From: Rhodospirillaceae bacterium
GTDB lineage: Bacteria > Pseudomonadota > Alphaproteobacteria > GCA-2731375
Reading direction: 5' to 3'
NCBI GenBank assembly: GCA_018660265.1
Contig: JABJKS010000046.1
Span: forward strand, 1-64,000
Length of the DNA: 64,000 nt
Below, piece after piece: positions 2 to 8,313 of this stretch. The translations under genes and the position numbers were made by a program. The stretch's first letter is position 1. Each line of letters opens with the position of its first letter. The notes below the pieces were generated by a model. The model was not told the DNA's origin. It ran no database searches and saw only the letters and a program-made list of their open reading frames with translations.

Positions 2-379
2 AGTGACGGGATCAGTGACGGGGCCAGGGACGAGACGGGTGAGATCATTTGGGGCGATTTGATGGTCGGCTTCAAGGTCTTTCGGGAAACCTTTTCATCG
101 AAGGTCACCTTATACGGACCTGATCGCATTGACGTTGAATATATCAACGGCCCGTTCCGGTATCTGAACAATCATTGGAAGTTTAATCCCGTCGGCGACG
201 GTCAAAGCACCGAGATCGATTTCTTTATAGATTTCGAATTCCGCTCCCGCATGTTGCAGGCTGTGGCGACGACGGTTTTCAACGAAGCGGTGCGCCGCAT
301 GGTCGGTGCCTTTGAAACCCGTGCGGGTGAAATTCATGGCAGCGTCCGCACCACACCGAGCTTGTCCGAGCCAGCTTAA
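2..379 (+). CDS. COQ10/RatA-family START-domain protein, 5' end missing
   Basis: The reading frame is open from base 2, so the true start lies left of the window and about 125 C-terminal residues remain. The visible part ends in the family hallmarks YLNNHW and DFEFRSRMLQ followed by FNEAVRRM. Proteins of this family (COQ10 in mitochondria, RatA in bacteria) have a lipid-binding START/polyketide-cyclase fold and are thought to bind or chaperone ubiquinone; the toxin label comes from E. coli RatA. In alphaproteobacteria the gene usually sits between lipA and a cinA/pgpA/ispDF group, and pncC, pgpA and ispDF lie just to the right here. Its last four bases overlap the end of the convergent histidine kinase gene. 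Confidence 0.88.
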   Translation, partial: SDGISDGARDETGEIIWGDLMVGFKVFRETFSSKVTLYGPDRIDVEYINGPFRYLNNHWKFNPVGDGQSTEIDFFIDFEFRSRMLQAVATTVFNEAVRRMVGAFETRAGEIHGSVRTTPSLSEPA

Positions 380-1887
380 GCTGCTGTACCGGTCAATTGC
401 TTTTCGTTGATGACGCGCTCGGCGGGAAGGCTGACCGTCGCGGTTGTGCCCACATCGATCTCGCTGGTGAGTTGCAGGCTGCCGCCATGGTTTTCCACCA
501 ATCGTTTGGTGATGGCTAGACCCAGGCCCGTGCCTTCTTTGGAAGAGGTGAGGACGCCATGGAGGCGGATGAATGGTTCCTGCACACGTTCTATGTCGAT
601 TGTGGTCATCCCCGCGCCGTGATCGCAAACCTTGAAAACCAAATTGCCGTTGTTGTCGATTTCCGCCTTTACGATGATGGTTGTATCGGGTCGGGTGAAT
701 TTGACTGCGTTGGACAGTAGATTTAGCAGGATCTGTCGCAATTGCCTCTCATCCGCCCTGAGATAGATGGCCGTTACGGGCAATTGCAGGTCGATGCTGA
801 TATTTTCCTTGGCGGCACGATCACGAAGCAGGCGGACACATTCATCGAAAATATGGTTGGCTTCGAAGGTACCTTCCTCAATCTCCATCTGGCCGGCTTC
901 GATGCGGGACAAATCCAGGATGTCGGTGATCAAGGCTAACAAATGCTCCCCACTATTGCGGATGTCGCCGGCATAGTCGCGATAGCGCCTATCCCCCAGG
1001 GGGCCGAAAAGTTCCTGCTGCATGACTTCGGAAAAGCCAATTACCGCATTCAAGGGGGTGCGCAATTCATGGCTGAAATGGGCCAGAAATTCAGATTTTG
1101 TCCGGTTGGCCTGCTCCGCCTCCTCCTTTGCGGCCATCACCTCGGCTTCCGCCTGTTTGCGTTCGGAAATGTCGATGATCGAGATTTGGTAGGCCGCTTT
1201 GCCGTTCCAGGTCACTGCCTGTGCGGATTCTTCGACCCACACGCCCCGCCCGTCCTTGCGCTTCAAATGCATATCGACAAATCTGGATGGTACAATTCCC
1301 TTGCTGCGGCTTTCCATTCTCTGGGCCACCATTTCAAGGTCGTCCGGCATAATGAAATCCGAGACATTGCGTCCGCGCATCTCCTCTCTTTGGTAGCCAA
1401 GCAACTTGGCCAAGGCGTCGTTGACGTAGGTGACACAGGCGTCTTGAATTATGCCGACACCTTGGAGAGAGCTTTCCGTCAGAGTGCGATAGCGTGTTTT
1501 GCTTTCCTCCAACTCCGCCGTCCGCTGGGCGACCCGGCTTTCCAGTTCATCGTGGGCTGTTTTCAGGTCATCACGAAATCTCTGTTGGAGATAGAGCAGG
1601 ATTGCCGTCGTCCAAATGGCAAAAACTGCCATTCCACGATTCGTCAGGACGACCCATGAAATGCCCCCTGCCGGAGAATAAGCATAACCGACACATGTCA
1701 GGACGGTGCCCAAGACTGCCAGTAAAAGTATGGCGCGCCTGCTTGGTGACCACAGGCCCAGCAAAACAAGGCCAACATAGGGAACCCCGCCCGCAACGCC
1801 CAGGGGCATCGACAGATCAAGCACCAACACCGCCATCGCGATGATGCTGCTGAATATGGCGAACCAAGTATTGGACCCCTTAAACAT
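376..1887 (-). CDS. PAS-domain sensor histidine kinase, membrane-bound
   Basis: 503 residues. The N-terminus has about four hydrophobic segments between residues 8 and 100, then a short coiled coil (about 103-130), a PAS sensor domain (about 131-245) and a second helical linker. The HisKA box HFSHELRTPLN puts the phosphorylated histidine at about 273. The ATPase domain shows the N box (LLNLLSNAVKF, about 388-397), DHGAGM (422-427) and GTGLGLAI (452-459), so it should be catalytically complete. There is no receiver domain and no response regulator beside it, so it is an orphan kinase whose partner must be encoded elsewhere. A GGAG Shine-Dalgarno 7 bases before the ATG supports this start. The sensed signal is unknown. 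Confidence 0.93.
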   Translation of the reverse strand: MFKGSNTWFAIFSSIIAMAVLVLDLSMPLGVAGGVPYVGLVLLGLWSPSRRAILLLAVLGTVLTCVGYAYSPAGGISWVVLTNRGMAVFAIWTTAILLYLQQRFRDDLKTAHDELESRVAQRTAELEESKTRYRTLTESSLQGVGIIQDACVTYVNDALAKLLGYQREEMRGRNVSDFIMPDDLEMVAQRMESRSKGIVPSRFVDMHLKRKDGRGVWVEESAQAVTWNGKAAYQISIIDISERKQAEAEVMAAKEEAEQANRTKSEFLAHFSHELRTPLNAVIGFSEVMQQELFGPLGDRRYRDYAGDIRNSGEHLLALITDILDLSRIEAGQMEIEEGTFEANHIFDECVRLLRDRAAKENISIDLQLPVTAIYLRADERQLRQILLNLLSNAVKFTRPDTTIIVKAEIDNNGNLVFKVCDHGAGMTTIDIERVQEPFIRLHGVLTSSKEGTGLGLAITKRLVENHGGSLQLTSEIDVGTTATVSLPAERVINEKQLTGTAA

Positions 1888-2134
1888 CGACGTGCTCCGT
1901 CATCGTCGTCGGTCTTTAATCACTAGCATTCGAACATACTAATATTACAGAATACAGTTCAAAAAATGTTAACGGCGAATCAAAATTCCCCATGACATGT
2001 TAAGTAGGAGAAGGCTGAAAAACCTATCGCCAATACAAAACACGTTGAAATTTTTCACGCCGATGTCAAATTGTCACTCGCGCCGGTTCGTCTGGATTTA
2101 TCTGCTACGGATTATAAAAGAGAAGGCTCAAGCG

Positions 2135-2512
2135 ATGACAAAACAGAAAAATAAAAACCTCGGGTCCCATTTGGCGCAGGTCGTTGTTGGTGCCGGCCTG
2201 GCAATAGGCGGTGGTGCCGTCGGTGCGTCGGCCCATACAACACATTCACCAATGAACCCGGCAGCAGTGAACCCGGCCGCAATTGCGAAACCTGGGGTCC
2301 AGACGCCGGGCACAATGCAGTTGGCGTCCTGCAATGCATGCGGGGCAAAAAAGACCGCCTGCAATCCCTGTGGGAAGGCGACAAAGGCCTGTGGGGCCTG
2401 TGGGGCCTGTAATCCCTGCGCTGCGAAGAAAGGCTGTTCGCCGTGCAATCCGGCTGCCGTTAAAAACCCCTGCGGTTCCTCAAAACCGGCGTGTAATCCC
2501 TGCCAACGTTAG
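2135..2512 (+). CDS. small exported Cys-rich protein with CNPC/CGAC motifs
   Basis: 125 residues from the ATG preceded by AGAAGG at a good distance; a longer open frame begins at 1997 but has no such site. Residues 1-33 look like a signal peptide (hydrophobic AQVVVGAGLAIGGG core, then ASA). After a Pro/Asn-rich spacer the protein has 13 cysteines between residues 66 and 123, mostly as CxxC pairs (CNAC, CNPC, CGAC, CSPC, CNPC). Such spacing suggests soft-metal binding. It resembles in style the low-complexity exported precursors such as bufferins, which chelate copper after thiooxazole modification, but the usual partner genes (MNIO/DUF692 enzyme and BufC) are not adjacent. Function is therefore unassigned; metal buffering is inference. 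Confidence 0.72.
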   Translation: MTKQKNKNLGSHLAQVVVGAGLAIGGGAVGASAHTTHSPMNPAAVNPAAIAKPGVQTPGTMQLASCNACGAKKTACNPCGKATKACGACGACNPCAAKKGCSPCNPAAVKNPCGSSKPACNPCQR

Positions 2513-2537: not shown

Positions 2538-3209
2538 TCAGGGCAATTGCAGCACGGCAAAATTATGCACTGCGTGAATAATCACGGGCACCCATAGGCT
2601 GCCCGAATATTCGTAGATCCAGGCCAGGAAGAAAAACAACGCGAAAAGGCCCGGCATGGCACCAAGGTCGAAATGCAGCAGGGCATGGCCAACGGCAGCA
2701 AGGGCGGCGGCTTGCCAAATGCCGACGCGGTGGCGCAGCCAGCCGAACAGCAGGCCGCGAAAGACCATTTCCTCCATCAAGGGGGCCAAAACCACGACAC
2801 CCATGATCATGGCCAACAGATAGTTAGGCTGGCTCCACGCTTCTGTATTCGACAAGGGCAGGGCGGGGCCCTCGGCGGCACCAAAAAGGGGTTTGAACAT
2901 GGCTGTGATCAACATGGTGGCGGGCACGGAAAACAGCCCCAACGCCACGGCGCGCAACAACCAACGCCTTTCGATCCGGGTAAATCCCAGCCGCGCCCAA
3001 CCGTCGCTTTCCTGCCAGACCGTGGCGAACCAGACCCAAATGATGGATGCCAGGCTGGGTAAAACCAAATAGGCCATCAATATTGCGGTTGGGTCCTGGT
3101 CATGGCCCGTGCCCAAATAGCGCTTGCCCAGCAGGGCTATCGTCAATTGTACGACGATGGCTCCCATGACGGCGCGCCACATATCCCCCGTTTCAATGCG
3201 TGTCGGCAT
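2538..3209 (-). CDS. CPBP-family intramembrane glutamic endopeptidase
   Basis: 223 residues from the ATG at 3209; a longer frame running to 3350 would overlap pncC and lacks support. The protein has several hydrophobic segments and the CPBP (CAAX protease/bacteriocin-processing, Abi) signature: EEMVFRG (E146, E147, R151), the histidine of GHALLHFD, and the C-terminal IHAVHN. Rce1-like members cleave within or near the membrane; many bacterial members have unknown substrates. It starts 7 bases after the pncC stop, so it is the last gene of the leftward ispDF-pgpA-LLM-pncC operon. No prenylation or bacteriocin gene lies nearby to suggest a substrate. Confidence 0.88.
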   Translation of the reverse strand: MPTRIETGDMWRAVMGAIVVQLTIALLGKRYLGTGHDQDPTAILMAYLVLPSLASIIWVWFATVWQESDGWARLGFTRIERRWLLRAVALGLFSVPATMLITAMFKPLFGAAEGPALPLSNTEAWSQPNYLLAMIMGVVVLAPLMEEMVFRGLLFGWLRHRVGIWQAAALAAVGHALLHFDLGAMPGLFALFFFLAWIYEYSGSLWVPVIIHAVHNFAVLQLP

Positions 3210-3216
3210 GCCGCAT

Positions 3217-3726
3217 TTAGCTCTTGGCCAGCGTTTCGGCCAGCATCTCGGCCAGCATTTCCAGGGCGGTATGGACCGTGGCCTCCCGAATGCCGCCTCG
3301 GCCCAGATCACCATAGCGCTGTTCCCGGTGCAGGGTCGCTTTACCGTCACGGGCGCAGGCTAGATGCACCAGTCCCACCGGTTTATCCGCCGTGCCGCCG
3401 CCCGGCCCCGCCACCCCGGTGCAGGCGACCGCCATATGAGCCAAGGAATGCGCCACCGCGCCTTCGGCCATGGCACGCGCCACAGGTTCGGAAACGGCCC
3501 CATGGCCCTCAATCAGTGCCATGGGTACATCCAGCATGACATTCTTGGCCTCGTTGGAATAGGTGACGAAGCCCCGGTCTACCACGGTGGATGAGCCGGC
3601 AATTTCGGTCAGACAGCCAGCGATTAAGCCACCGGTGCACGATTCAGCCGTTGCCACCATGACGCCCGCCGCCTCGCAGGCGCGTAATAACTCCGTGGCT
3701 TGTGCCGTCAATTGATCACTAAACAT
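3217..3726 (-). CDS. pncC: CinA-C family nicotinamide-nucleotide amidase
   Basis: 169 residues, the size of stand-alone CinA C-terminal domains. It shows the family motifs ATAESCTGG (about 25-33), TYSNEAK and VAGPGGG. PncC deamidates nicotinamide mononucleotide to nicotinate mononucleotide, recycling the by-product of NAD-dependent DNA ligase. The C-terminus carries a short repeated EMLAEMLAETLAKS tail. The ATG lies 3 bases after the stop of the LLM oxidoreductase gene, so translation is probably coupled. Confidence 0.93.
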   Translation of the reverse strand: MFSDQLTAQATELLRACEAAGVMVATAESCTGGLIAGCLTEIAGSSTVVDRGFVTYSNEAKNVMLDVPMALIEGHGAVSEPVARAMAEGAVAHSLAHMAVACTGVAGPGGGTADKPVGLVHLACARDGKATLHREQRYGDLGRGGIREATVHTALEMLAEMLAETLAKS

Positions 3727-3729
3727 CTG

Positions 3730-4812
3730 CTAGTACTTCGCCATGATCTGTTCCGAGAATTCCTGGAAGTTGGAGCGGGCCACATGAATGGGCGGCATCA
3801 GCACAACCTCACGCAGCCCGGCGGCCTCCAACGCCTTCATGCGGGAGAGGATCTCGTCCGGTTCCCCCACCAGGCCGCCCGATGCCTTGATCATTTCTGG
3901 CGTGACGAAGCGCCGCTCTGCCTCCGGCAGATAGGCGCAATGGCCGGTGTGGAGGATTTGATGGCGGCGGTCTTCGGGCATTTCCGTCTCCACATAGCGT
4001 TTGTAGTCCTCCCACAGGCCACGGACTTCGCCCAGGATGAATTTGTCGTTGCCCCTCTGGCGGTAGAGCTCGTACCAAAAATGCAGGGATGATACGACCT
4101 GTGCCCCGGTCTCTTCGATGACCCGGTCCGAGGTCAAGGTCTCACCCGGTCGCATTATGCAGGCAAAGGTCAGGACGGAGGCATGGAAGCTGTCATCGAT
4201 CACCCGGCCAACCTCTTCACCGCCGCGGCGGATACGCTCCAGGTTCTGGGTTAGCAGGCCGTAGGGTTCGTTGCCGGCACTGATCCGGCCATCGCCATAG
4301 GCACCGGTTGCAGCCAGGGCTTTCGGCCCGTTGGCGGCGACATAGATCGGCACCTGATGTTCCGTGTCGATGCATTCCAGTTGCCGGTCCAGGAACTTGA
4401 TGGGCTGGCTTTCCTTGCCGGGCGGGGCATATTCGACTTCTTCGCCTGCCAACAAGCCGCGCACGACACGGAGGTAATCGCGAAAAGCCGATGGCGGCAC
4501 CGGGTCCTGGCCCATGATCCGCATTGCTGTGTGCCCGGTGCCGATGCCCAGGAAAACCCGGCCCGGTGCGATGCGATTAATGCTGGCAATAGAGTGCGCG
4601 GTGACCGGGGCCAGGCGGGTGCCCGCGATGGCGACGCCCGTGCCCAGCCGCAGGGTCGAGGTGTTTTGCGCCGCCAGGGCCATCGTGGCGTAGCAGTCGG
4701 ACCAGATCATCTGACTATCGGGCACCCAGCCGCTGTCATAGCCGAGATCTTCCAAATACGGGAAAATCTGCCAATCATCAATTTTCGTCGCTACGATGCC
4801 GCCAAATTTCAT
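3730..4812 (-). CDS. LLM-class flavin-dependent oxidoreductase
   Basis: 360 residues with a bacterial-luciferase-like TIM barrel: N-terminal MKFGGIVATK strand, the LRLGTGVAIAG segment and RVFLGIGTGH, typical of FMN- or F420-dependent LLM enzymes. The exact substrate cannot be read from the sequence. It is placed inside the pgpA-pncC pair that is normally contiguous, apparently as an insertion into the operon; spacing is 30 bases after pgpA and 3 bases before pncC. A second unrelated-length LLM gene lies at 18724-19788. Confidence 0.88.
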   Translation of the reverse strand: MKFGGIVATKIDDWQIFPYLEDLGYDSGWVPDSQMIWSDCYATMALAAQNTSTLRLGTGVAIAGTRLAPVTAHSIASINRIAPGRVFLGIGTGHTAMRIMGQDPVPPSAFRDYLRVVRGLLAGEEVEYAPPGKESQPIKFLDRQLECIDTEHQVPIYVAANGPKALAATGAYGDGRISAGNEPYGLLTQNLERIRRGGEEVGRVIDDSFHASVLTFACIMRPGETLTSDRVIEETGAQVVSSLHFWYELYRQRGNDKFILGEVRGLWEDYKRYVETEMPEDRRHQILHTGHCAYLPEAERRFVTPEMIKASGGLVGEPDEILSRMKALEAAGLREVVLMPPIHVARSNFQEFSEQIMAKY

Positions 4813-4842
4813 TGTCTCGCTCTCCCAAACTTCAAACCGACT

Positions 4843-5328
4843 TCAAAACCAGTATCGAAATCCCGCAATGGCCAACAGACCATAAAGGGCCGCCATAATA
4901 TCATCCATCATAATACCCAAACCGCCTGTAAAACGCCGCTCCGCCCAATTTGCGGGCCAGGGTTTGGCAATATCGCACAAGCGGAACAATAAAAATCCAG
5001 CCAGATAGTACCAGGGATCAAGCGGTGCCACGATCAGTACCAGCCATTGCCCGGCGACTTCATCAATCACCACCATGCCGGGGTCTTTGCCACCGCCCGC
5101 CTGCTCGTAAACGCCACCTGCCCAAATTCCCAGGGCGAAAACCACGACAGTTGCCACCGCCAGGGCGATAGGCCCTGCATAATAGACAATGCCCCAGGCA
5201 AAGGGCAGGGCGGCTAAAGACCCCCACGTACCCGGTGCCGGACGCAGCAGGCCGGCACCAAACCAGGTCGCCAACAAACAGGCCGGGTGAGACAGCGGCA
5301 GAGGTGCTTTCGAAAGGAATTTCGCCAT
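4843..5328 (-). CDS. pgpA: phosphatidylglycerophosphatase A
   Basis: 161 residues with the PgpA motifs PAPGTWGS, IDEVAGQW, FRLCDIAKPWP and GGLGIMMDD, plus three to four hydrophobic segments. The enzyme removes phosphate from phosphatidylglycerophosphate in the inner membrane to give phosphatidylglycerol. Its ATG is immediately adjacent to the stop codon of ispDF, so the two are co-transcribed and probably translationally coupled. The ispDF-pgpA-pncC order is a common alphaproteobacterial arrangement. Confidence 0.96.
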   Translation of the reverse strand: MAKFLSKAPLPLSHPACLLATWFGAGLLRPAPGTWGSLAALPFAWGIVYYAGPIALAVATVVVFALGIWAGGVYEQAGGGKDPGMVVIDEVAGQWLVLIVAPLDPWYYLAGFLLFRLCDIAKPWPANWAERRFTGGLGIMMDDIMAALYGLLAIAGFRYWF

Positions 5329-6507
5329 TCAGATCGGCAGTCGTACAGTGGCGGTGGCTTGGGCTGCGATACCCTCGTTGCGCCCGGTGAAGCCAAGGCG
5401 TTCCGTGGTGGTTGCCTTGATGCTGACCCGGTCGCCATCCAGCCCAACGATGTCACCCAAACGCGCCGCCATGGCAGAATGATGCGGCGTTATTCGGGGT
5501 GCCTCGCAAATTATTGTCAGGTCCAAATGCGCCAATTTCCCACCCCTGGCGTGCACGCGATCCACGGCGAAAGCTGCGAAGCGGGCCGAATCCATATCTT
5601 TCCACTGCGCCTGGCTGGGTGGGAAATGCCGCCCGATATCGCCATCCCCAATGGCCCCCAATATGGCATCGGTGACTGCATGCAGGGCGACATCGGCATC
5701 TGAATGACCGGCCAGTTGGCTATCGTGTGGGATGTCCACGCCGCACAGGCGCACCGAGGAACCGGGCTCAAACCGATGCACGTCAAAGCCCTGGCCGACC
5801 CGTACATCGAACAAACGCGCGGCATGGGCGGCATTGGCCCGGCCTAGGTCATCCGCCGTGGTAATCTTGAAGTTTTCCGCCGCGCCATGGACGATGGTGA
5901 CTTCCAGGCCCACCGCCCGCGCCAGGGAAGCGTCATCCGTATGGCCCTCGCCCACGCTTTCATGCGCCGCCAGAATATTCGCAAAGTGGAAACCTTGGGG
6001 GGTCTGGGCCTGCCACAAATCATCGCGCGGCACTTCATCGATGATCGCGCCTTCATGGCTGCGCTTCAGGCTATCAACTACGGGGATCGCGGCAATGGCA
6101 CCGGGGTGGTTGTCCAGACCAGCCAGGACATTATCAATGACAGCGGCGGAGATAAACGGCCGGGCACCATCGTGGATCAGGACCCGTGCGGGGGCCAGGG
6201 GTGCCAAACCCTGCAGGCCGCGCAAGACGGATTGCTGCCGGCTTGCTCCACCGATGATCGGGGGCAGCAGGTCCAGGCCATGCGCGGCCTCCTCGTAATG
6301 GCTTTGATCGTCGGCGCGGATGACGGCGGCAACACCTGCTATGGCAGGGTGATGGCAAAATGCCAGCAGGGCATGACGCAGGACGGGGATCCCGGCCAGG
6401 GTCTGGTATTGTTTCGCCACCGGCCCGCCCAGGCGTTCACCACGCCCGCCCGCGACGATTAAGGCCATCACAGGGGCGGCTGCCGTACCATTTTTTAACT
6501 CATCCAT
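5329..6507 (-). CDS. ispDF: bifunctional IspD/IspF of the MEP isoprenoid pathway
   Basis: 392 residues, a fusion typical of alphaproteobacteria. Residues 1-230 are the IspD cytidylyltransferase, with the nucleotide-binding loop AGGRGERLGG followed by the KQY lysine. Residues from about 233 are the IspF cyclase, with GQGFDVHRF and HSDADVALH providing metal ligands and the terminal RNEGIAAQATATV. Together they convert MEP to CDP-ME and CDP-ME phosphate to the cyclic diphosphate. The same window holds dxr and uppS, so isoprenoid precursor supply and undecaprenyl carrier synthesis are both represented. First gene of the leftward operon; the promoter must lie in the roughly 80-base gap shared with the divergent crotonase gene. 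Confidence 0.97.
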   Translation of the reverse strand: MDELKNGTAAAPVMALIVAGGRGERLGGPVAKQYQTLAGIPVLRHALLAFCHHPAIAGVAAVIRADDQSHYEEAAHGLDLLPPIIGGASRQQSVLRGLQGLAPLAPARVLIHDGARPFISAAVIDNVLAGLDNHPGAIAAIPVVDSLKRSHEGAIIDEVPRDDLWQAQTPQGFHFANILAAHESVGEGHTDDASLARAVGLEVTIVHGAAENFKITTADDLGRANAAHAARLFDVRVGQGFDVHRFEPGSSVRLCGVDIPHDSQLAGHSDADVALHAVTDAILGAIGDGDIGRHFPPSQAQWKDMDSARFAAFAVDRVHARGGKLAHLDLTIICEAPRITPHHSAMAARLGDIVGLDGDRVSIKATTTERLGFTGRNEGIAAQATATVRLPI

Positions 6508-7917: not shown

Positions 7918-7946
7918 AGTGGCGCAGTAGCGCTCGATAAGTTCGA

Positions 7947-8147
7947 TCAGGGGCCCGCACCGTTGGTGCGTGCCCGGTCCTTGTTGTCATCGATCCATTT
8001 CTTGTCCCGCTGAATGCAGTCGGCAAACCCGGGACTGCCTTTTTTGAAGCCCAGGCGCAGGCAGCGGTCTTCGTACCAATTCGGCTGTTGCTGCAGGCAG
8101 CCGGCCAGCAATGCAAGGCCCGCGAAACAAAGCAATACTCTCACCAT
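7947..8147 (-). CDS. small lipoprotein
   Basis: 66 residues. The N-terminus is a lipoprotein signal with the lipobox LLAGC (cysteine at 17), so the mature protein of about 50 residues is lipidated. The mature part has two more cysteines in CLRLGF and FADCIQ, which may form a disulfide in the periplasm. AAGGG precedes the ATG at a suitable distance. No function is known to me for this type. Confidence 0.75.
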   Translation of the reverse strand: MVRVLLCFAGLALLAGCLQQQPNWYEDRCLRLGFKKGSPGFADCIQRDKKWIDDNKDRARTNGAGP

Positions 8148-8313
8148 GGCAAATACCCTTAATTGCTGAGGAGGTTGTTTAACGAATGCTTAACTATAAT
8201 GTAGGGTTTTATTTACGAAAACATAGCCAATATAGACTTGGTGGGTGGGATTGTCGCACTGCTCCCGGTCTTAGAGGACAGGGAAGCTATGATGTAAATT
8301 GAGGGTAAAGTCC

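Follow-up and report, generated by a model that had tools for sequence, protein, structure and literature searches.

A short cysteine-repeat protein of a Rhodospirillaceae bacterium, its family and its candidate partner DUF6969

The cysteine-repeat gene and its surroundings

The window analyzed here is a stretch of 64,000 nucleotides at the beginning of contig JABJKS010000046.1 (C97 below) of a Rhodospirillaceae bacterium (assembly GCA_018660265.1). It carries an open reading frame of 125 residues (Table 1), the frame of which is also open upstream, with a further ATG at 1997; for several relatives the alignment begins at the first residue counted from 2135. By inspection, the N-terminus of the protein is Lys-rich and is followed by a hydrophobic stretch, and a linker with NPAAVNPAAIAKP separates this stretch from the cysteine tail. 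All 13 cysteines lie within the last 60 residues and form seven overlapping CxxC motifs (CNAC, CNPC, CGAC, CGAC, CNPC, CSPC, CNPC). The original prediction of 13 cysteines in 58 residues after a signal peptide, in CNPC and CGAC patterns, was confirmed for the repeats at residues 66–123, in place and strand. A match to the NPCAAK pattern falls at C97:2411-2428. Judging by its signal-like start, the product is probably exported.

A repeat frame of this kind is beyond chance, because the runner-up among the 315 six-frame ORFs of the window (at least 60 residues) contains two CxxC motifs, tblastn finds relatives, and purifying selection acts on the sequence (see below). The protein matched no Pfam family at E values up to 10, and its one match in NCBIfam is at chance level. 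Metallothioneins are likewise small, very Cys-rich and contain CxxC, but they differ from the window protein, which has a signal-like start, NPC repeats and no Pfam match. By eye, the ORFs adjoining the window gene include no modification gene, and nothing YeeE-like was seen in the initial 8 kb of the window.

Table 1. The window gene, its parts and its neighbours (positions in the window)
Feature	Position	Strand	Basis
Cys-repeat protein with signal-like start, stand-alone short form of the CNPC family	2135..2512	+	ORF (ATG at 2135, stop codon ending at 2512), relatives, purifying selection
Signal-peptide-like N-terminus, residues 1–34	2135..2236	+	Inspection; aligns with N-terminal parts of long CNPC proteins
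Cys-repeat region, residues 66–123 (13 Cys, 7 CxxC)	2330..2503	+	Sequence count
Weak match to the TCACA-N4-TGTGA dyad, 2 mismatches	2055..2068	+	Scan upstream of the window gene
Divergent neighbour, PAS/histidine-kinase-like by eye, outside the conserved neighbourhood	376..1887	-	ORF reading
Convergent neighbour, CPBP-type membrane protease-like by eye	2538..3350	-	ORF reading

Family forms, nearest copies and upstream sequences

Related stretches in other genomes were confirmed by tblastn in 176 cases, so the objection anticipated in the original prediction, that homologues in other species might be missing, is excluded. The best 80 of the 176 were kept and gave 77 loci, the titles of which name mostly Alphaproteobacteria or orders of this class. 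The window gene is a genuine family member, and the searches made turned up no description of this family.

Members of the family are either short, consisting of a signal-like start and repeats, or long, with a C-terminal haem domain, which is cytochrome P460 (PF16694) or a cytochrome domain of the SoxA/TsdA/MauG type. Among the best 80 of 176 relatives, 67 loci are anchored (77 minus 10 that contained no anchor under the script rule); the P460 form occurs in 48 of these 67, the cytochrome c form in five and the short form in 38. The wording and number of the repeats vary (CGAC, NPCAAK, NPCAGA). A form of 774 residues with 68 CxxC and a P460-like C-terminal domain is encoded at 3401-5725 of locus L026, and the number of repeats therefore varies widely in the family. 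One relative shows a weak Pfam resemblance to the sperm protein Mst87F (E 0.032, below the cut-off). The P460 domain of locus L010 matched no P460 entry of the PDB by sequence. No paper was found in the literature searched for CNPC with cytochrome P460 or for the repeat strings. The P460 proteins described before are not known to have a Cys-repeat half. Anti-phage defence was considered and rejected, PADLOC giving no match for the CNPC-P460, FGE-like and DUF6969 proteins of L010 (the latter two are treated in the next section).

Four family genes are present in the source genome: the window gene, CNPC-P460 genes on contigs C104 and C101, and a short one on C110. Apart from itself, the window protein has its best match in this genome in the N-terminal part of the C104 protein (residues 4–124, 46% identical). 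The C104 and C101 paralogues end in a P460 domain with CxxCH, that of C104 being above the PF16694 cut-off, in contrast to the window protein, which has no P460 domain.

The nearest copy among the best 80 of 176 relatives (L009) adjoins a relative of the same CPBP-like gene. Over 78 aligned codons of the Cys region, pN is 0.126 and pS 0.765, which points to strong purifying selection on the cysteine tail; all 12 aligned cysteines of the window protein are kept, and the thirteenth sits in a gap. In the L009 copy, a gap of 32 bases separates the signal-like part from the Cys part, and the two are in different reading frames. This syntenic copy with a broken frame occupies 7946-8282 of its locus, and the coverage of its contig is, by the contig name alone, only about 5. 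A close copy of the window gene was found in one of ten other genomes of the genus that were searched (G245, probably the genome of L009). Given the frame break and the single congener, the window copy may be dispensable. The stand-alone copy in the window is real, and it may be dispensable or may have been recently broken in the sister.

A dyad, TCACA-N4-TGTGA, precedes many of the Cys-repeat genes: it is exact in 8 of 60 upstream regions and has one mismatch in 14 more, against 0.6 expected in all from shuffled sequences, an expectation uncorrected for the choice of the dyad as the top of a motif scan. The 1.04 Mb of fetched loci contain 18 exact copies (e.g., L046 7880, L018 6987, L062 4323). 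The match of the window gene is weak; about 12% of 350-base upstream regions, once shuffled, contain one with two or fewer mismatches. Sites of FNR, CRP, CueR, NsrR, Fur, Zur, RirA, OxyR and other known regulators showed no clear excess upstream of 61 Cys-repeat genes. Within the source clade, CNPC-P460 genes have a related footprint, TCACGGAAGTTTGAGG, upstream.

DUF6969 and the FGE-like protein as neighbours of the family

Within 4 kb, 47 of the 67 anchored loci (best 80 of 176 relatives) encode DUF6969 (PF22308), 38 an FGE-like protein and 18 a transporter of the YeeE type (PF04143). For 41 loci from the same best 80, at least 4 kb was available on both sides; DUF6969 was found in 26 of them, the FGE-like protein in 22 and neither in 15, and the latter comprise nine P460-only and six short-only loci. 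In the source genome, DUF6969 is encoded at C104:125334-125933 (E 6e-81), where it stands together with the FGE-like gene and CNPC-P460 (L086). The window gene does not adjoin it; adjacency is common in the family and not universal. Behind 22 loci with no scored DUF6969 nearby (18 of the 20 such anchored loci and four of the ten unanchored ones) stand 21 genomes, of which 20 carry DUF6969 elsewhere. The partner gene therefore need not adjoin the repeat gene, and the same would hold for the window gene.

Co-occurrence was assessed in 240 genomes of the class, the source genome included. The CNPCAAK DNA pattern was found in 19 of them, DUF6969 in 53, MNIO in 94 and a close FGE-like protein in 16. 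The 19 genomes with CNPCAAK contain DUF6969 in 18 cases, the FGE-like protein in 11 and MNIO in seven; in the only one that lacks a DUF6969 match (G124), the FGE-like gene is truncated where its 4,229-base contig ends. Clustered NPCAAK, taken as two or more matches within about 200 bases and picked by hand, coincides with DUF6969 in 21 of 21 genomes, against 32 of the 219 others (Fisher p 4e-16), and these 32 sampled genomes thus have DUF6969 without clustered repeats. Counted by family, which is the only treatment of kinship in these tests, the figures are 17/17 and 22/136 (p 3e-12). Two genomes with DUF6969 were excluded from the 21, G126 (two matches at unlisted places) and G079 (single matches on two contigs). 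Isolated NPCAAK matches were treated as chance; they occur in 16 genomes where DUF6969 was not found and in two where it was (G051, G238).

The converse approach started from DUF6969. In a sample of the phylum, 20 of 398 genomes have it, seven of them outside the class. A preset rule (a hydrophobic stretch followed by no fewer than 5 Cys and 3 xPC, with a Cys content of 4% or more) was derived from a first set of loci before a new set was read, the new set being 20 DUF6969 places (that of the source genome excluded) and 20 control stretches. Under this rule, a Cys-repeat ORF with a hydrophobic start lies within about 5 kb of DUF6969 in 9 of the 20 places and in none of the 20 controls. A relaxed rule, made later and so not blind, gives 12/20 and 0/20 on the same set. 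Short repeats missed by the relaxed script were seen on reading in L143, L144 and L147. Two congeners of L144 with an equal YeeE–DUF6969 spacing, L145 and L146, probably encode the same peptide and were left uncounted. The earlier set comprised 20 DUF6969 loci taken from 19 of the 35 sampled genomes in which DUF6969 occurs without CNPCAAK; it gave 8/20 under the preset and 10/20 under the relaxed rule, one of them (L094) being false in both. Over all 40 DUF6969-picked loci, the relaxed script finds a Cys-repeat ORF in 22 (the false one included) and none in 18; some of the converse-test loci are congeneric and so not independent, and a few are cut by contig ends. A DUF6969 gene can thus predict the location of Cys-repeat proteins.

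The family and its link with DUF6969 are well supported, and an isolated Cys-rich ORF becomes a member of a widespread bacterial family for which a specific and testable partner other than MNIO can be named. This points to a cysteine-peptide system separate from that of the bufferins. Action of DUF6969 on the peptide is not proved by their co-occurrence, and the mechanism considered in the next section is a conditional reading of these data.

DUF6969 is a His-rich, apparently cytosolic protein, a signal peptide not being apparent by eye. Columns invariant in 31 members include H60, H78, H80, E86, H89, H91 and H123. The pattern YYHxH...EHGHxH...H is kept in eight divergent copies, with F for one Y in two of them; three of the eight adjoin YeeE or a bufferin-type operon. 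These residues make a metal site plausible as a guess. For the L010 protein, AlphaFold2 gave a confident model (mean pLDDT 89.6). Comparison with the PDB gave nothing convincing (best sequence match E 1.1, with 150 residues; best VIA Z 3.3; Foldseek E 1.2), and a new fold is unproven. No paper in the literature searched mentions DUF6969.

The other recurrent neighbour is a relative of the formylglycine-generating enzyme (FGE), with only a putative identity as FGE itself. By eye its N-terminus is signal-like, and it matches PF03781 (E 1e-43). Modelled from L010 (mean pLDDT 83.8), the protein shows the SUMF1 fold; in VIA-align its matches are CalU17 (Z 25.0, rmsd 3.1, 239 aligned), ToxD (Z 24.7), PvdO (Z 23.9) and human FGE with Cu(I) (Z 23.6, rmsd 3.0, 226 aligned), with rmsd 2.7–3.1 over 223–239 residues overall. 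In human FGE, the Cys pair 336/341 has a catalytic role. The neighbour shares the fold of the FGE/SUMF1 family (PF03781), but its gene does not stand beside the window gene, and the only cysteines invariant in 22 aligned members, C262 and C265, form a C-x2-C pair, which differs from the 336/341 spacing of the human enzyme (positions from entry titles). The C-terminal segment, compared with the PDB, gave nothing informative on this pair.

Several further genes were noted in these surroundings. A divergent FGE-like relative with GCGTCRP is encoded at L127 5025-6014, in a genome with no DUF6969 match and no repeat pattern; its neighbours matched none of the profiles used. A protein of about 160 residues with a signal-like start, invariant cysteines and SGGGL...YSCPLNTTPDY (cluster c3; L012 6343-6834 and 13 other loci) is encoded near the FGE-like gene in many loci and has only weak matches in Pfam and the PDB. 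In the source clade (L010, L011, L014, L017, L021 and others), genes resembling methionine sulfoxide reductase MsrB and HAD proteins (clusters c10 and c4), both assigned by eye, occur close to DUF6969 and the FGE-like gene. Clusters c8 and c15, which by eye look like the repeats and DUF6969 read in antisense, were dropped.

Possible functions of the exported repeats

Some gene orders around the family suggest sulfur chemistry. In L172, a divergent gene for a TsdA-like cytochrome is followed by two genes of the YeeE type, a 77-residue Cys-repeat peptide, DUF6969 (7 bases after the peptide), a rhodanese with a signal-like start and, by eye, an ArsR-like gene. L171 has the order YeeE, Cys peptide and DUF6969, to which the overlapping locus L147 adds a gene that by eye is rhodanese-like. 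Sulfur import or sensing by YeeE-like SoxT proteins is reported for an alphaproteobacterium in PMC11582611, and the presence of YeeE-family genes beside Cys-repeat and DUF6969 genes resembles these SoxT/YeeE sulfur import modules. The words P460, DUF302, formylglycine and cysteine-rich do not occur in the main text of PMC11582611.

In the preferred reading, which as a whole is given a little under an even chance, the window gene encodes a short stand-alone member of a Sec-exported Cys-repeat family that functions as a polythiol carrier or buffer and is served by DUF6969. The cytosolic His-rich DUF6969 protein, encoded on C104, would meet the Cys-repeat chain before export. It could either modify the cysteines of the chain or hold them reduced, as near-obligate co-occurrence and adjacency suggest. 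The chain would then leave through Sec. In the periplasm, the polythiol could carry or buffer a thiol-reactive cargo, most likely sulfane sulfur or alternatively a Cu(I)-like metal, and this cargo might be exchanged with the haem domains and with the exported partners that are found repeatedly near the relatives (the FGE-like protein, rhodanese, the YeeE transporter). On this view, the window gene would supply an additional scaffold, with DUF6969 acting in trans. Direct observation covers the gene and its family, the haem fusions, co-occurrence and neighbourhood, and the missing MNIO match; export, ligand, chemistry and any phenotype are interpretations of sequence. If the repeats are a sulfur or metal carrier, a component would be added to periplasmic sulfur or copper handling in many bacteria.

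A narrower and still less certain proposal concerns DUF6969 itself. It may possibly constitute an unrecognized class of metal-dependent peptide-maturation enzymes, which would modify the cysteines of NPC repeats before export, independently of MNIO, in Alphaproteobacteria and in further classes of their phylum, and would serve precursors in trans. Such a maturation system would add a non-MNIO class of exported Cys-rich products.

As to the cargo, we lean towards sulfane sulfur, with a metal close behind. A periplasmic metal buffer, in which the CxxC motifs would themselves be the ligands of Cu(I), Ag(I) or Zn(II) in the manner of metallothioneins or bufferins, DUF6969 would be a chaperone or modifier and the FGE-like protein a copper-related partner, is a less likely alternative that accounts for several observations. 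These are the dense CxxC of the window protein, the His-rich motif kept in DUF6969, and the FGE-like partner in 38 of 67 loci (best 80 of 176 relatives). Fusions of Buf1, cytochrome c and FGE-sulfatase are described, and FGEs called cuproenzymes, in the part of PMC12452194 consulted. Copper is also kept in play by one locus (L170), in which a bufferin-type operon is directly followed by a Cys-repeat peptide and DUF6969. However, no copper exporter, chaperone or regulator was recognized among the conserved neighbour clusters read, most of them named by eye. The C-x2-C pair of the FGE-like protein, which lacks the spacing of the human enzyme, likewise speaks against a metal, and YeeE and rhodanese suggest sulfur.

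The window copy could instead be a decaying duplicate of the N-terminal part of CNPC-P460 with no present role, which is rather improbable. Its best match within its own genome is indeed that part of the C104 protein, and the rarity of close copies in the genus (one of ten congeners) and the broken frame of L009 are in keeping with decay. On the other hand, the frame in the window is intact, with start and stop present, the Cys region is under strong purifying selection, and short forms are common (38 of 67 anchored loci among the best 80 of 176 relatives).

Still less probable is a structural protein of the cell envelope, cross-linked by disulfides outside the cell and with no carrier role, the repeats of which DUF6969 would keep reduced before export. 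Low-complexity repeats of variable number and wording are expected of a filler or cross-linking polymer, and the weak resemblance of one relative to Mst87F (E 0.032, below the cut-off) points the same way, but the haem fusions, the recurrent YeeE and the occasional TsdA-like and rhodanese genes fit redox or sulfur chemistry better.

Membership in the bufferins was suggested by the overall look of the protein. Bufferins and other precursors of MNIO enzymes (Buf1/DUF2282, Buf2, Buf_EGKCG/oxazolin) are also Cys-rich; they have a signal peptide (predicted by eye for the window protein), a dedicated partner and occasionally a cytochrome fusion. The likeness is logically apt, as here too a signal-like start precedes the cysteines and the protein tracks a partner of its own, DUF6969 putatively replacing MNIO/DUF2063. 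Unlike them, the window gene lies in a genome with no MNIO or DUF2063 match, encodes a protein that does not match DUF2282, has the motifs CNPC and NPCAAK, and is linked with DUF6969. In the whole source genome (97% complete, 121 contigs), MNIO (PF05114) and DUF2063 (PF09836) gave no matches, with two and one of 14 control genomes positive, respectively; MNIO was unmatched in the congener G187 as well. The lack of bufferin modification genes nearby, noted in the original prediction, thus holds and extends to the whole genome. The window protein has neither DUF2282 (Pfam) nor the EGKCG precursor signature (sequence). MNIO occurs in 7 of the 21 genomes with clustered NPCAAK and in 87 of the 219 others (p 0.65, no association), which leaves 14 of the 21 with none. 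MNIO-dependent precursors are sometimes not associated with a partner gene, according to the consulted part of PMC12452194, in the main text of which P460 is not present. The original prediction had left two possibilities, enzymes encoded elsewhere or a different class; the former was not borne out by the MNIO and DUF2063 searches, and the latter is supported, MNIO being no commoner where the family occurs among the 240 genomes of the class. On these searches and the missing co-occurrence, membership in the bufferins was rejected: that the protein is a true bufferin whose MNIO enzymes were missed in gaps of the assembly, from which a gene could be absent at 97% completeness in 121 contigs, is highly improbable, with no match here, in G187 or in 14 of the 21 clustered-repeat genomes. 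The two systems can stand side by side: at L170 5160-9161, a peptide with CGAAKCGAK repeats and then DUF6969 come directly after the bufferin-type operon, in which DUF2063 and DoxX were identified by Pfam and the precursor and MNIO by eye.
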